Source of the DNA: a virus
IMG/VR virus record: IMGVR_UViG_3300037541_000360
Coordinates: 1 to 26,699 of that record
Strand: one strand, 5' to 3'
DNA: 26,699 nucleotides
Shown here: one piece after another, positions 4,937 to 10,031 of the stretch
How the letters are laid out: each line of letters begins with the position of its first letter
Numbering within the stretch: position 1 is the stretch's first letter
The notes under the pieces: model-generated
Databases searched by the model: none
What the model saw: the letters and a program-made list of their open reading frames with translations, nothing else
What the model was told of the DNA's origin: nothing
Position numbers and translations under genes: made by a program

Positions 4937-5421
4937 TCTCGGAACGCCTTAATTGTTTCGTCGAATGTAAGTTTTGCCGACTTCGCAGCGGCCACGGTTT
5001 CGATCTTTGCAACGATGCTCGGCCTTGCACACTCAGCCAAAATGCCAAGATGACTGGCCGCCGCGTCGTGTTTGGCTTTGGATGCGTTGTCGAGCTTGTC
5101 GTAGTCGGCACAGCCAAGCTTCTTCAGCGAGCGAACACTTGCCCGCCTGATGCGTTGAATGGCACCAGTTGCGACTTGGACAATCCCACTGTCGTTGAGC
5201 CGCGTTAGCGTGCCGTGTTCGCAGGCGACCACGATACGGCCCTCAGTCTGGACAATACGGCGGGCTGATGCCAACGCCGCGCGGAACTTTCCGCTGTTCT
5301 TGTCGAGCCGCAATTGATCGGCCAATAGATCGACAGACAGTGTGCCGCCAATTGCCATTTTCGCCAGGATGTCGACTAGCGTTTGCACGTCGTAGCCCCG
5401 CCTAAATTTGTCGTTCGCCAT
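4933..5421 (-). CDS. Hypothetical protein, 162 aa, first gene after the pentamer array
   Basis: No family is certain. The N-terminus (VQTLVDILAKMAIGGTLSVD, then LLADQL) looks like a helix-turn-helix or winged-helix start. A strand pair follows (EGRIVVACEHGTLTRLNDSG), and the rest is Arg/Lys- and Ala-rich and helical. A DNA-binding role is therefore plausible but inferred. ATG 5421 has GAGGAG 8 nt upstream. It is the first gene downstream of the cloverleaf/pentamer region in the direction of transcription, so it may be regulated by it or act on it. Confidence 0.7.
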   Translation of the reverse strand: MANDKFRRGYDVQTLVDILAKMAIGGTLSVDLLADQLRLDKNSGKFRAALASARRIVQTEGRIVVACEHGTLTRLNDSGIVQVATGAIQRIRRASVRSLKKLGCADYDKLDNASKAKHDAAASHLGILAECARPSIVAKIETVAAAKSAKLTFDETIKAFRE

Positions 5422-5448
5422 TGTGTTTGCTCCTCGTTAGTGTGTCGG

Positions 5449-5455
5449 AAAAAAA
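5449..5455 (-). other. T7 run at the downstream end of the pentamer array
   Basis: Seven consecutive T on the minus strand follow directly after the last pentamer and precede the ribosome binding site of the 162 aa gene. There is no strong hairpin immediately before the run, so it is not a typical intrinsic terminator by itself. Confidence 0.35.
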
Positions 5456-5544
5456 CGTCTCGTTTCGGGTCGATTCGCCTCAAATCGCGTCGGATCGGAT
5501 CGAGTCAGGTCACGTCGACTCGATTCGGATCGGTTCATCGCCAG

Positions 5545-5589
5545 AACCCGCCCGCAGTTGCGAACTGCCAGCCCGTTAGGCGGCGGGTT
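5545..5589. repeat. Cloverleaf element 1
   Basis: Outer stem AACCCGCC (5545-5552) pairs with GGCGGGTT (5582-5589). The inner hairpin is GCAGTT-GCG-AACTGC (5554-5568). The third hairpin is GCC-CGTTA-GGC (5571-5581). All pairs are Watson-Crick. Confidence 0.85.
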
Positions 5590-5660
5590 TCGTTTCGTTT
5601 CGTGTCGTGTCGGATCGATTCAAATCGGGTCGTTTCGAATCGCTTCAGCTCGGCACCAAT

Positions 5661-5703
5661 ACCCCACTGCCATTGCGAATGACTAGGTCGTTAGCCGTGG
5701 GGT
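5661..5703. repeat. Cloverleaf element 2
   Basis: Outer stem ACCCCAC (5661-5667) pairs with GTGGGGT (5697-5703), a compensated change from element 1. The inner hairpin is CATT-GCG-AATG with one mismatch further out. The third hairpin is GGT-CGTTA-GCC (5686-5696), closed by a G-T pair. Confidence 0.85.
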
Positions 5704-5768
5704 GCGTTTCGTGTCGTGTCGTGTCGTATCGCATCGAATCGCTTCGTGTCGGATCGCATCGTTGCCAG

Positions 5769-5814
5769 AACCCGCCTGTCATTGCGAATGACCAGCCCAT
5801 TACGGCAGCGGGTT
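5769..5814. repeat. Cloverleaf element 3
   Basis: Outer stem AACCCGC (5769-5775) pairs with GCGGGTT (5808-5814). The inner hairpin is GTCATT-GCG-AATGAC. The third hairpin is GCC-CATTAC-GGC (5795-5806). Confidence 0.85.
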
Positions 5815-5889
5815 ACGTTTCGTTTCGTATCGTTGCGTGTCGAATCGATTCAAATCGGTTCGCTTCGACTCGCTTCAGGTCGTCACCAG

Positions 5890-5933
5890 AACCCTGTCGC
5901 CATTGCGAATGGCAGGTCTTGCACCACAGGGTT
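5890..5933. repeat. Cloverleaf element 4
   Basis: Outer stem AACCCTGT (5890-5897) pairs with ACAGGGTT (5926-5933). The inner hairpin is GCCATT-GCG-AATGGC. The third hairpin is GGT-CTTGC-ACC (5915-5925). All three stems differ from element 1 and keep full pairing. Confidence 0.87.
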
Positions 5934-6048
5934 ACGTTTCGTGTCGGCTCGGCTCGAATCGTTTTGTTTCGACTCGCTTCAAGTCAGATCGAATCAATTC
6001 GGATCGACTCCACTCCACTCTGCTCAACTCGGGTCACGTCGATACCAG

Positions 6049-6093
6049 AACCCGCCCGCGATTGCGAATCGCCAGCCCGTTAGGCAGCGGGTT
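6049..6093. repeat. Cloverleaf element 5
   Basis: Outer stem AACCCGC (6049-6055) pairs with GCGGGTT (6087-6093). The inner hairpin is GCGATT-GCG-AATCGC. The third hairpin is GCC-CGTTA-GGC. The longest pentamer block, about 22 units, lies between elements 4 and 5. Confidence 0.85.
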
Positions 6094-6183
6094 ACGTTTC
6101 GCTTCACATCAAATCGTGTCACATCGTGTCGCATCGTCTAGGATCGTTTCAAATCGCCTCGACACGAATCGTCTCAGGTCGAC

Positions 6184-7439: not shown

Positions 7440-7656
7440 GCTGCACCGCCTTTCCTCGCATCAACCAACGTCCGTTGTCCGCTCGCCATTCGTCGCCGAT
7501 GGCGGTTCCGAATTGATGGTCTCGACCATGCAGCCAGTGCAAGATTGTAGGTTCATCGGTCGTCGTTTCACCGTCGACAATCAATTCGACCGGATCAAAA
7601 TCGTTAATCCACAGCCACCACGTCATTAGGCTGCCAGGCATTGCTGGTGCGTTCAT
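7423..7656 (-). CDS. Small hypothetical protein, 77 aa, Trp-rich
   Basis: The product begins MNAPAMPGSLMTWWLWINDF. It has six Trp in 77 residues (WW, W, W, W, W) and two short acidic stretches. Segments such as DPVELIVDGETTT and GRWLMRGKAV suggest a small beta-rich domain. ATG 7656 overlaps the upstream stop as ATGA. No family is recognised. Confidence 0.65.
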   Translation of the reverse strand: MNAPAMPGSLMTWWLWINDFDPVELIVDGETTTDEPTILHWLHGRDHQFGTAIGDEWRADNGRWLMRGKAVQREETE

Positions 7657-7967
7657 TGGTCCTCCTCCACCTTAGCAAACTCGCAAAATTCCACGTCACC
7701 GCCCCGCGTCTGCCATACTCGCCACAGGATCGCCAGCTTGCCGAACGGCCGCAGCGATTCGTCCTCCAGCACGTCCAGCCGTTGAATCAATGCCTGTAGC
7801 ACGTTGGCTGCGTCGTCGGCGGCCATGGTTACGATGGCGTCGCCCAGCATCGCCCCGAGGACGTGTTGCGGATTGCGGTTGCCAATCTCGCAATGCCGAT
7901 GATGCCCGCCGATAATCTCGCCGTACTTCTTGGTTTCGACCAACGTCAATCGAAATTCACGTTCCAT
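7653..7967 (-). CDS. Hypothetical protein, 104 aa
   Basis: The product begins MEREFRLTLVETKKYGEIIG. I start at ATG 7967 because AAAGGGGA lies 6 nt upstream, and this start overlaps the CsrA-like gene by 11 bp. The N-terminus holds HHRHCEIGNR, a cluster of His and Cys that could bind a metal. The rest is helical (DDAANVLQALIQRLDVLEDE) and ends in an acidic tail. No family is recognised. Confidence 0.66.
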   Translation of the reverse strand: MEREFRLTLVETKKYGEIIGGHHRHCEIGNRNPQHVLGAMLGDAIVTMAADDAANVLQALIQRLDVLEDESLRPFGKLAILWRVWQTRGGDVEFCEFAKVEEDQ

Positions 7968-8334
7968 TTTCAATCCCCTTTCCTGCAATTTCTTCCCGCC
8001 ACAGTTCAAACGTGGCGGGTGCCTCGAACTCAACCCGGATGCGATCTTTGCCGCATATTTTGACGCCAAGCAAACCGCTAACCATCTTGCCGTTATCCTG
8101 TCGAACGCGTAGCACAAGCCGCTCACCAGATTTTCGAGTTAGCACTAGCATCCCGTTACGCTTTACCTCGATGCCAGACTCGATTGATTCTCCAGCTTGC
8201 TTTGCAACCGCTGCCAACAATGCGTCGGTAGCCCATTGCGTAAACGACTGGCCAGCACGGTCAGCAGCGTCTTTCATCGACTGCCATTTAGCGTCGCTTA
8301 CTCTGCCTATCTGGCGACATGTTGTACTGCTCAT
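7957..8334 (-). CDS. Fusion of a ribbon-helix-helix-like segment to a CsrA-like RNA-binding domain
   Basis: CsrA/RsmA binds GGA motifs in mRNA leaders, often over the ribosome binding site, to control translation. Residues 62-71 (MLVLTRKSGE) align with the CsrA start MLILTRRVGE. After a longer loop, VKICGKDRIRVEFEAPATFE and LWREEI (111-116) match the rest of the domain. The residues corresponding to CsrA L4, R6 and R44 are present (L65, R67, R113). Residues 1-50 resemble a ribbon-helix-helix unit (VSDAKWQSMKDAADRAGQSF, TQWATDALLAAV). Total 125 aa, against about 60 for CsrA. ATG 8334 has AAAGGA 7 nt upstream. It is probably a phage translational regulator; whether it acts on host or phage mRNAs is unknown. 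Confidence 0.75.
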   Translation of the reverse strand: MSSTTCRQIGRVSDAKWQSMKDAADRAGQSFTQWATDALLAAVAKQAGESIESGIEVKRNGMLVLTRKSGERLVLRVRQDNGKMVSGLLGVKICGKDRIRVEFEAPATFELWREEIAGKGIENGT

Positions 8335-8349
8335 TTCGATTTCCTTTCG

Positions 8350-8484
8350 TTACAACACCCAAAAAGCCCACATCTTTTCCGCCTCATGCCAAAAAATGCT
8401 GTGCGGACTATGGCCTAGCCGCTGGCATTCTCGCCACGCAACCTCCGCAGCGTGCAGCGTCGCAAGCGTTCGTAACACTGGCAT
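8350..8484 (-). CDS. Small protein, 44 aa
   Basis: A short gene from ATG 8484 to TAA at 8350. It is supported by a strong AAAGGA 6 nt upstream, in a 14-nt leader (ACGAAAGGAAATCG) that is repeated before the CsrA-like gene. The product begins MPVLRTLATLHAAEVAWREC and ends WHEAEKMWAFWVL. It is helical, rich in Trp and His, and of unknown function. Confidence 0.58.
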   Translation of the reverse strand: MPVLRTLATLHAAEVAWRECQRLGHSPHSIFWHEAEKMWAFWVL

Positions 8485-8497
8485 ACGATTTCCTTTC

Positions 8498-8541
8498 GTC
8501 AGATAGCCCGGACGCGTTGCGTCCGGGCGTGTGATGCGTCA
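8498..8541. repeat. Intergenic hairpin element A (44 bp)
   Basis: GTCAGATAG, a perfect 10-bp hairpin GCCCGGACGC-GTT-GCGTCCGGGC (8506-8528), then GATGCGTCA. It has the same frame and total length as element B, with a different stem sequence. It lies just after the 66 aa gene's stop. It has no T-run on either side, so it may be an RNA processing or stability site, or a weak terminator. Confidence 0.65.
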
Positions 8542-8747: not shown

Positions 8748-8771
8748 GGTCTCGCTCCCTTGCGTTTTGGT

Positions 8772-8815
8772 GTCAGATAGCCTGCCAGCGACATGCTGGC
8801 AGGCGAGATGCGTCA
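8772..8815. repeat. Intergenic hairpin element B (44 bp)
   Basis: GTCAGATAG, a perfect 10-bp hairpin GCCTGCCAGC-GACAT-GCTGGCAGGC (8780-8804), then GATGCGTCA. The flanks are identical to element A while the stem is different but fully paired. It lies just after the stop of the 63 aa gene. Confidence 0.65.
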
Positions 8816-9014: not shown

Positions 9015-9038
9015 GATTCGCTCCCTTGCGTTTGATTC

Positions 9039-9073
9039 CGGTCCGCGACATGCGTCCCGATGGTGGAATAGTA
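9039..9073 (-). repeat. 35-bp promoter-leader repeat, copy A
   Basis: This segment from the -10 box into the transcribed leader is identical to 9412-9446 at 34 of 35 positions. It contains ATAGTA (plus-strand view of -10) and CGGTCCGCGACATGCGTCCC. A shared operator or leader element is likely. Confidence 0.8.
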
Positions 9074-9096
9074 GTGATATCGTCGGACGATGTCAA
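9068..9096 (-). promoter_or_regulatory. Early promoter P2 (minus strand)
   Basis: TTGACA (-35, 9096-9091), 17 nt, TACTAT (-10, 9073-9068): a near-consensus sigma70-type promoter reading toward the 63 aa gene. The -35 box overlaps one arm of a 13-bp inverted repeat. Confidence 0.75.
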
Positions 9097-9387: not shown

Positions 9388-9411
9388 TTTTCGCTCCCTT
9401 GCGTTAGTGTT

Positions 9412-9446
9412 CGGTCCGCGACATGCGTCCCGATGGTTGAATAGTA
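9412..9446 (-). repeat. 35-bp promoter-leader repeat, copy B
   Basis: Second copy of the -10 and leader segment described at 9039-9073, with one base difference (T for G). The surrounding sequence beyond the -10 box is not conserved, so the duplication or selection acts on the start and leader. Confidence 0.8.
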
Positions 9447-9469
9447 CGCTTATCGTCTGATTGCGTCAA
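9441..9469 (-). promoter_or_regulatory. Early promoter P1 (minus strand)
   Basis: TTGACG (-35, 9469-9464), 17 nt, TACTAT (-10, 9446-9441). It reads toward the 81 aa gene. The -35 box is inside the left arm of the 15-bp inverted repeat shared with the divergent plus-strand promoter. Confidence 0.72.
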
Positions 9470-9539
9470 TACACTTTCGGAAAAATCCGGGAAGATTTTT
9501 TCGGCCCAAAAAAATCCCGCTAACGTATTGACGCAATCA
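9458..9539. promoter_or_regulatory. 15-bp inverted repeat containing both divergent -35 boxes (switch operator candidate)
   Basis: TGATTGCGTCAATAC (9458-9472) is the exact reverse complement of GTATTGACGCAATCA (9525-9539). Each arm holds the TTGACG box of the promoter it faces. The 52-nt spacer has two A/T-rich tracts (AGATTTTTT and AAAAAAAT), which could allow looping between two bound dimers. Confidence 0.72.
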
Positions 9540-9555
9540 AACCCGATAGTATGAT
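9528..9555 (+). promoter_or_regulatory. Divergent promoter for the plus-strand operon
   Basis: TTGACG (-35, 9528-9533), 16 nt, TATGAT (-10, 9550-9555). It reads to the 70 aa gene at 9601, whose AAGGA (9588-9592) lies 8 nt before ATG. Confidence 0.7.
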
Positions 9556-9600: not shown

Positions 9601-9813
9601 ATGACGACGAACACGAAACGAGCTGCGAAGGGCGGGGAATTCGGTGCGAACATGGTCGAGTTGCCGACCACTGCGGCCCTGTGGCTTGCCAGTCACATCC
9701 TCGAAACAACCGGCCAAAACGTCTATCTGAAGATCAGTAAGCATCGGTATCGGTTTGGTCGCGACACTGCTTTCCCGGCCTATGGTTCGGAACTTTTCAA
9801 AGGACTGCGATAA
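9601..9813 (+). CDS. Small hypothetical protein, 70 aa, possible switch regulator
   Basis: The product begins MTTNTKRAAKGGEFGANMVE. The start is basic, a helix follows (AALWLASHILETTGQNVYL), and the end is basic and beta-like (KISKHRYRFGRDTAF). No family is recognised. It is one of only two plus-strand genes in the window and lies directly behind a promoter that shares an operator with the early promoter. By context it may help regulate that pair. Its stop overlaps the next ATG as TAATG. Confidence 0.72.
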   Translation: MTTNTKRAAKGGEFGANMVELPTTAALWLASHILETTGQNVYLKISKHRYRFGRDTAFPAYGSELFKGLR

Positions 9814-10031
9814 TGCCAAGCGGCGGAAAACGAGAAGGGGCCGGACGGAAGTCTGGCCCCTATGGCCCAAAAAAGATGGTTAGCTTGCGGTTAGCGGAAG
9901 ACGTCCGAAACTTCCTGGCGATTACCGCCAGTCAAGCGGACACAATCGAGACAGCGGTCCGCAAGTCGGCCGCGTTCAAGCGGTGGCGAGAGAAGCAATC
10001 CGAGAAAGGAAAGCTAATCAACATCCTGTGA
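9813..10031 (+). CDS. Small basic DNA-binding-like protein, 72 aa
   Basis: The product begins with GGKREGAGRKSGPYGPKKMV (residues 4-23), a start common to small phage and plasmid proteins. A ribbon-helix-helix-like stretch follows (VSLRLAEDVRNFLAITASQA) and then a basic helix (RKSAAFKRWREKQSEKGK). It is probably DNA-binding. It is coupled to the preceding gene and ends 18 bp inside the 3' end of the convergent glycosyltransferase gene, so late and switch transcripts collide here. Confidence 0.75.
   Translation: MPSGGKREGAGRKSGPYGPKKMVSLRLAEDVRNFLAITASQADTIETAVRKSAAFKRWREKQSEKGKLINIL

Follow-up and report, generated by a model that had tools for sequence, protein, structure and literature searches.

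CsrA is a major regulator of translation in bacteria. Copies of its gene are also carried by phages, and a survey found csrA genes in 30 of 2517 of them (Sobrero and Valverde 2020, PMC7366521). No worked-out role for these phage copies was found in the literature searched. While phage CsrA proteins are thus already known, the gene described here, a single instance, is new in that it joins a CsrA-family domain to a predicted ribbon-helix-helix (RHH) segment; no published RHH-CsrA fusion was found in the open-access literature.

The window, by which we mean the whole stretch of DNA analyzed, is a 26.7-kb virus record that contains terminase (gpA nuclease), lambda-type portal, and capsid genes. 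The fused gene occupies positions 7957..8334 on the minus strand, exactly where the sequence-only reading had placed it, and encodes 125 amino acids. Its first 61 codons (8152..8334, minus strand) form an N-terminal module with a predicted RHH core at about residues 8–47, which is followed by a flexible linker at residues 48–60. The CsrA domain spans residues 62–117 (7984..8151, minus strand), and its strands 2 and 3 are separated by an 8-residue insert. The downstream gene, which encodes 104 amino acids (7653..7967, minus strand), begins before the fused gene has ended (ATGGAACGTGA), and this overlap suggests that the two are translated in a coupled manner. The architecture itself, in which a CsrA-family domain is joined in frame to an N-terminal RHH segment, is well supported at the level of the sequence, from this one instance. 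Through these two domains, the phage may regulate genes on DNA as well as on RNA.

The CsrA-like C-terminus, which had been recognized earlier by its retained L65, R67, and R113, is confirmed by several comparisons. Residues 62–117 match PF02599 with an E-value of 4e-6 and 27.1 bits, only just above the cut-off of 27, and in a PHROG profile scan the fused protein matches PHROG 9500, “CsrA-like regulator”. Across 21 aligned relatives, R67 and R113 never vary and L65 is at least 90% conserved; L65, R67, and R113 correspond to L4, R6, and R44 of E. coli CsrA, which make RNA contacts. A profile of the aligned CsrA family matches solved CsrA, RsmE, and RsmN structures with E-values down to 6e-24. 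The monomer model places CsrA strands at residues 61–68, 72–78, 84–90, 98–105, and 109–113 and a C-terminal helix at 114–122, with block pLDDT values of about 74–84 in the domain core. VIA-align groups this half weakly with RsmN/RsmF (Z of 3.5 and 3.2, 31% identity), and a Foldseek search with the whole monomer model returned nothing significant, an isolated CsrA monomer being a poor query. The score against the NCBIfam csrA equivalog TIGR00202 is 21 bits, far under its cut-off of 70.1, so the protein is a divergent member of the family and not CsrA proper. Its 8-residue insert is common to a sister phage, and at this position the insert is shorter in several copies from viruses and planctomycetes.

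The signals from the N-terminus are weak singly, but jointly they point one way, to the RHH fold that the sequence-only reading had proposed and that profile searches and structural models likewise predict. Residues 11–45 match PHROG 6506, “Arc-like repressor”, with E-values of 4.4e-4 for the segment alone and 2.9e-4 for the first 50 residues, and ten composition-matched shuffles of the N-terminus gave no value below 0.07 in the same comparison. PHROG 6506 has no match in the rest of the window or in two related records, and the N-terminus matches none of the Pfam RHH families. Folded alone, the segment forms helices at residues 14–26 and 31–50, whose lengths and spacing fit an RHH domain; the monomer model assigns no RHH strand, and fold-match E-values are weak when taken singly. 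Counted from their titles, 44 of the 50 best PDB Foldseek matches are RHH proteins, among them TacA, KacA, AtaR, AmrZ, Arc, CopG, PutA, and MatP, and every one of these RHH matches is individually insignificant (E-values of 0.9 or worse). VIA Z-scores against RHH structures are 4–5.5. Searches of planctomycete genomes, phage records, and viral contigs with the RHH segment alone found no relatives, though 61 residues of a fast-evolving fold make a weak probe.

How this segment came to be joined to CsrA can be approached through the sister phage (IMGVR_UViG_3300037541_000280, here L001), the only one found by a search with the neighboring gene. Its genome is syntenic with the window, and its flanks are mostly 79–91% identical. 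At the same locus it encodes a 64-residue stand-alone CsrA that is 67% identical over the domain and has no counterpart of the 61-codon module. The csrA ATG of L001 stands directly behind AACGAAAGGATATCGA, whereas in the window the ATG that comes after AACGAAAGGAAATCGAA is that of the RHH segment. Since the same leader precedes CsrA in one phage and the RHH segment in the other, the 61 codons were either gained here or lost there, in frame; because both flanks match the sister, a chimeric assembly is unlikely. Directly behind csrA, L001 has an extra gene (5210–5535 of its record) whose first residues, MEREF, are also those of the next gene, a possible duplication.

The earlier suggestion that the fusion is unusual holds, as the in-frame fusion is real and has no second example in the collections searched. 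With the whole protein as query, 392 genomes of Planctomycetota and 388 of Pseudomonadota gave none, and none was found in 33 viral contigs with CsrA, at 14 bacterial loci, or in the phages and plasmids searched. Longer matches at three loci (L061, L083, and L039) were considered as fusions and rejected as chance alignments of upstream frames.

The operon that contains the fused gene has repeated leaders, and here the first reading was correct: the window has exactly two copies of AAAGGAAATCG and exactly three of CGCAAGGGAGCGA, each of them on the minus strand and just upstream of a start codon. The leader of the fused gene, ACGAAAGGAAATCG (8337..8350), can be read as CGA-AAGGAAA-TCG, a possible 3-bp hairpin with GGA in its loop, and an identical leader lies upstream of a 44-residue gene (8486..8499). 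The second type, CGC-AAGGGA-GCG, with GGA in a hexaloop, precedes genes of 66 (8752..8764), 63 (9018..9030), and 81 residues (9391..9403). The copies at 9018 and 9391 lie within one 86-bp promoter-plus-leader duplication (81% identical) and are therefore not independent, and the five operon leaders comprise two independent sequences. Leaders of the same kind are present in sister phages.

The further claim that these leaders are sites of the type bound by CsrA stands only in part. As a motif, GGA is nothing unusual in a Shine-Dalgarno site: of the 26 starts considered, 21 have it within 24 nucleotides upstream. All five operon leaders, compared to 5 of 21 other starts, place GGA in the loop of a hairpin that covers the Shine-Dalgarno, and the count over all starts, which were hand-picked and of which three are approximate, is 10 of 26 against about 4.2 expected. 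The hairpins themselves have only 3–4 bp, and folding each of the five window leaders by itself gave energies like those of shuffled sequences (z of −0.84 to +0.39). RNA-level control of the operon is likely; that the fused protein exerts this control we infer, and CsrA control of the operon by this protein is plausible.

Other elements surround these leaders. Two perfect 10-bp intercistronic hairpins, one ahead of the leader of the 44-residue gene (8506..8528, minus strand) and one with another stem sequence at the same position relative to the next leader (8780..8804, minus strand), are clearly non-random (z of about −3). Their stems are unrelated, each is followed by TATCTGAC and then by a GGA leader, and both are kept in L001. 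A promoter-like TTGACA-17-TACTAT (9068..9096, minus strand) probably marks where the operon of the fused gene begins, and a similar TTGACG-17-TACTAT precedes the 81-residue gene (9441..9469, minus strand). Downstream of both lies the 20-nucleotide element GGGACGCATGTCGCGGACCG (9039–9058 and 9412–9431), which folds as a hairpin with facing GA/GA and has exact copies in just two further stretches of the viral collection. An 18-nucleotide inverted repeat (9455–9472 and 9525–9542, 94%) over the −35 boxes of divergent promoters is a probable operator of the early control region, and together with the promoter repeats it suggests transcriptional control. Divergent from the operon, on the plus strand, is a gene for a basic 72-residue protein (9813–10031) whose middle looks RHH-like by eye; it matched no RHH family. 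The sister and another related record share promoter and leader, and the sister gene has no RHH, so the promoter repeats and the inverted repeat are probably not specific to the RHH segment. No operator could be tied to the N-terminus.

As an explanation of the whole locus, we lean slightly towards a two-domain phage regulator, whose CsrA half acts on GGA RNA sites and whose RHH half acts on DNA. Such a protein would form a homodimer through both halves, an RHH dimer and a strand-swapped CsrA dimer, with about 12 flexible residues between them. The targets of the CsrA half would be GGA sites overlapping with ribosome-binding sites, most likely those in the leaders of the early operon to which it belongs, including that of the fused gene itself, and/or in host messages. 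The RHH half would add sequence-specific DNA binding, so that the protein could stay at a promoter of the phage during its action on the transcript, or could alternate between RNA and operator. Against this stand the single known fusion, the individually insignificant RHH fold matches, the short, shuffle-like hairpins of two independent leader types, and the sister, which has the same promoter and leaders without an RHH, so that the promoter repeats need not be RHH operators. A narrower version, in which one dimer would use its RHH half to contact its own promoter and its CsrA half to contact the GGA leaders of that operon, so that repression of transcription and of translation would be coupled on the nascent message, is a good deal more speculative and probably wrong. 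If true, it would represent a DNA-tethered CsrA.

A competing possibility, less probable than the two-domain regulator but the best of its rivals, is that the protein acts mainly on the host during infection, where it would displace or mimic host CsrA proteins on host messages or compete for Csr-type RNAs. The host is likely a planctomycete, since near full-length relatives of the terminase are found mainly in Planctomycetota: the terminase is matched in 65 of 392 genomes of this phylum, many matches being near full-length with E-values down to 1.6e-73, compared to partial matches in 388 Pseudomonadota genomes (best E-value 5e-11), and among the eight listed of eleven matching phage records none covers more than 38%. 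The two planctomycete genomes examined contain 8 and 11 CsrA matches, which, like the existence of other phage csrA genes (PMC7366521), fits an action on host targets; against it, the domain is divergent, at most 37–39% identical to the planctomycete copies compared. An Rfam scan of the window found no RNA. About 740 bp of odd, apparently non-coding DNA (5440–6180) is phased in 5-base TCGNN steps and has units of about 115/230 bp that carry AACCCGC...GCGGGTT inverted repeats, with no matching DNA at the same place in the sister. As a candidate CsrB-like decoy it was dismissed on visual inspection, as plus-strand GGA is not visibly enriched. Elsewhere, at 135–433, is a 72-bp tandem repeat of 4.2 copies (80% identical).

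It is rather unlikely that the RHH segment is only a module for dimerization or tethering, through binding of another protein or through avidity, with CsrA as the working part as in the sister. RHH folds serve also for dimerization and toxin binding, no operator was found, and CsrA alone suffices in the sister; yet RHH domains of this size usually bind DNA, and the PHROG family matched is one of phage Arc-like repressors. Less likely still are two products, the fusion and a CsrA made alone from an internal ATG at codon 62 (8151), like that of the sister: M62 corresponds to the start of the stand-alone CsrA in all relatives, but the nearest Shine-Dalgarno-like GAGG lies 14 nucleotides before this ATG, and a good site lies ahead of codon 1. 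The 61 codons might also have no function and be an extension that arose by chance or is decaying, as their single occurrence and flat codon-position G+C (0.54, 0.54, and 0.53) could suggest. This is very improbable for a segment that is open, in frame, and preceded by the ancestral ribosome-binding site of csrA, and that gives RHH signals in both profile and fold searches, the profile signal being absent in shuffles.

The two-domain regulator that we favor can be set beside four known forms. With Arc-like phage repressors (PHROG 6506; P22 Arc) it shares the size, helix spacing, and profile of its N-terminal segment; known Arc proteins stand alone, whereas this predicted RHH is joined to an RNA-binding domain and has no operator tied to it. 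RsmN/RsmF of Pseudomonas aeruginosa (PDB 4krw, 4k59), 31% identical by structural alignment, is likewise a divergent CsrA-family protein with an insertion, but it is stand-alone and without RHH, and its insertion is at most a putative equivalent of the insert found here. Like the CsrA/RsmA family (PF02599), including its phage-borne alleles (PMC7366521), the fused protein has the domain with equivalents of L4, R6, and R44 and is carried by a phage; it differs in its N-terminal RHH, its 8-residue insert, and a score far under the csrA equivalog cut-off. The closest form is the stand-alone CsrA of L001, a syntenic gene with the same leader, insert, and closely related domain, which lacks the RHH module and has an additional gene downstream. 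The fused protein and its unfused sister form at the same locus are a natural pair for testing whether CsrA is used by phages on operons of their own, and whether this changes when CsrA is tethered to DNA.
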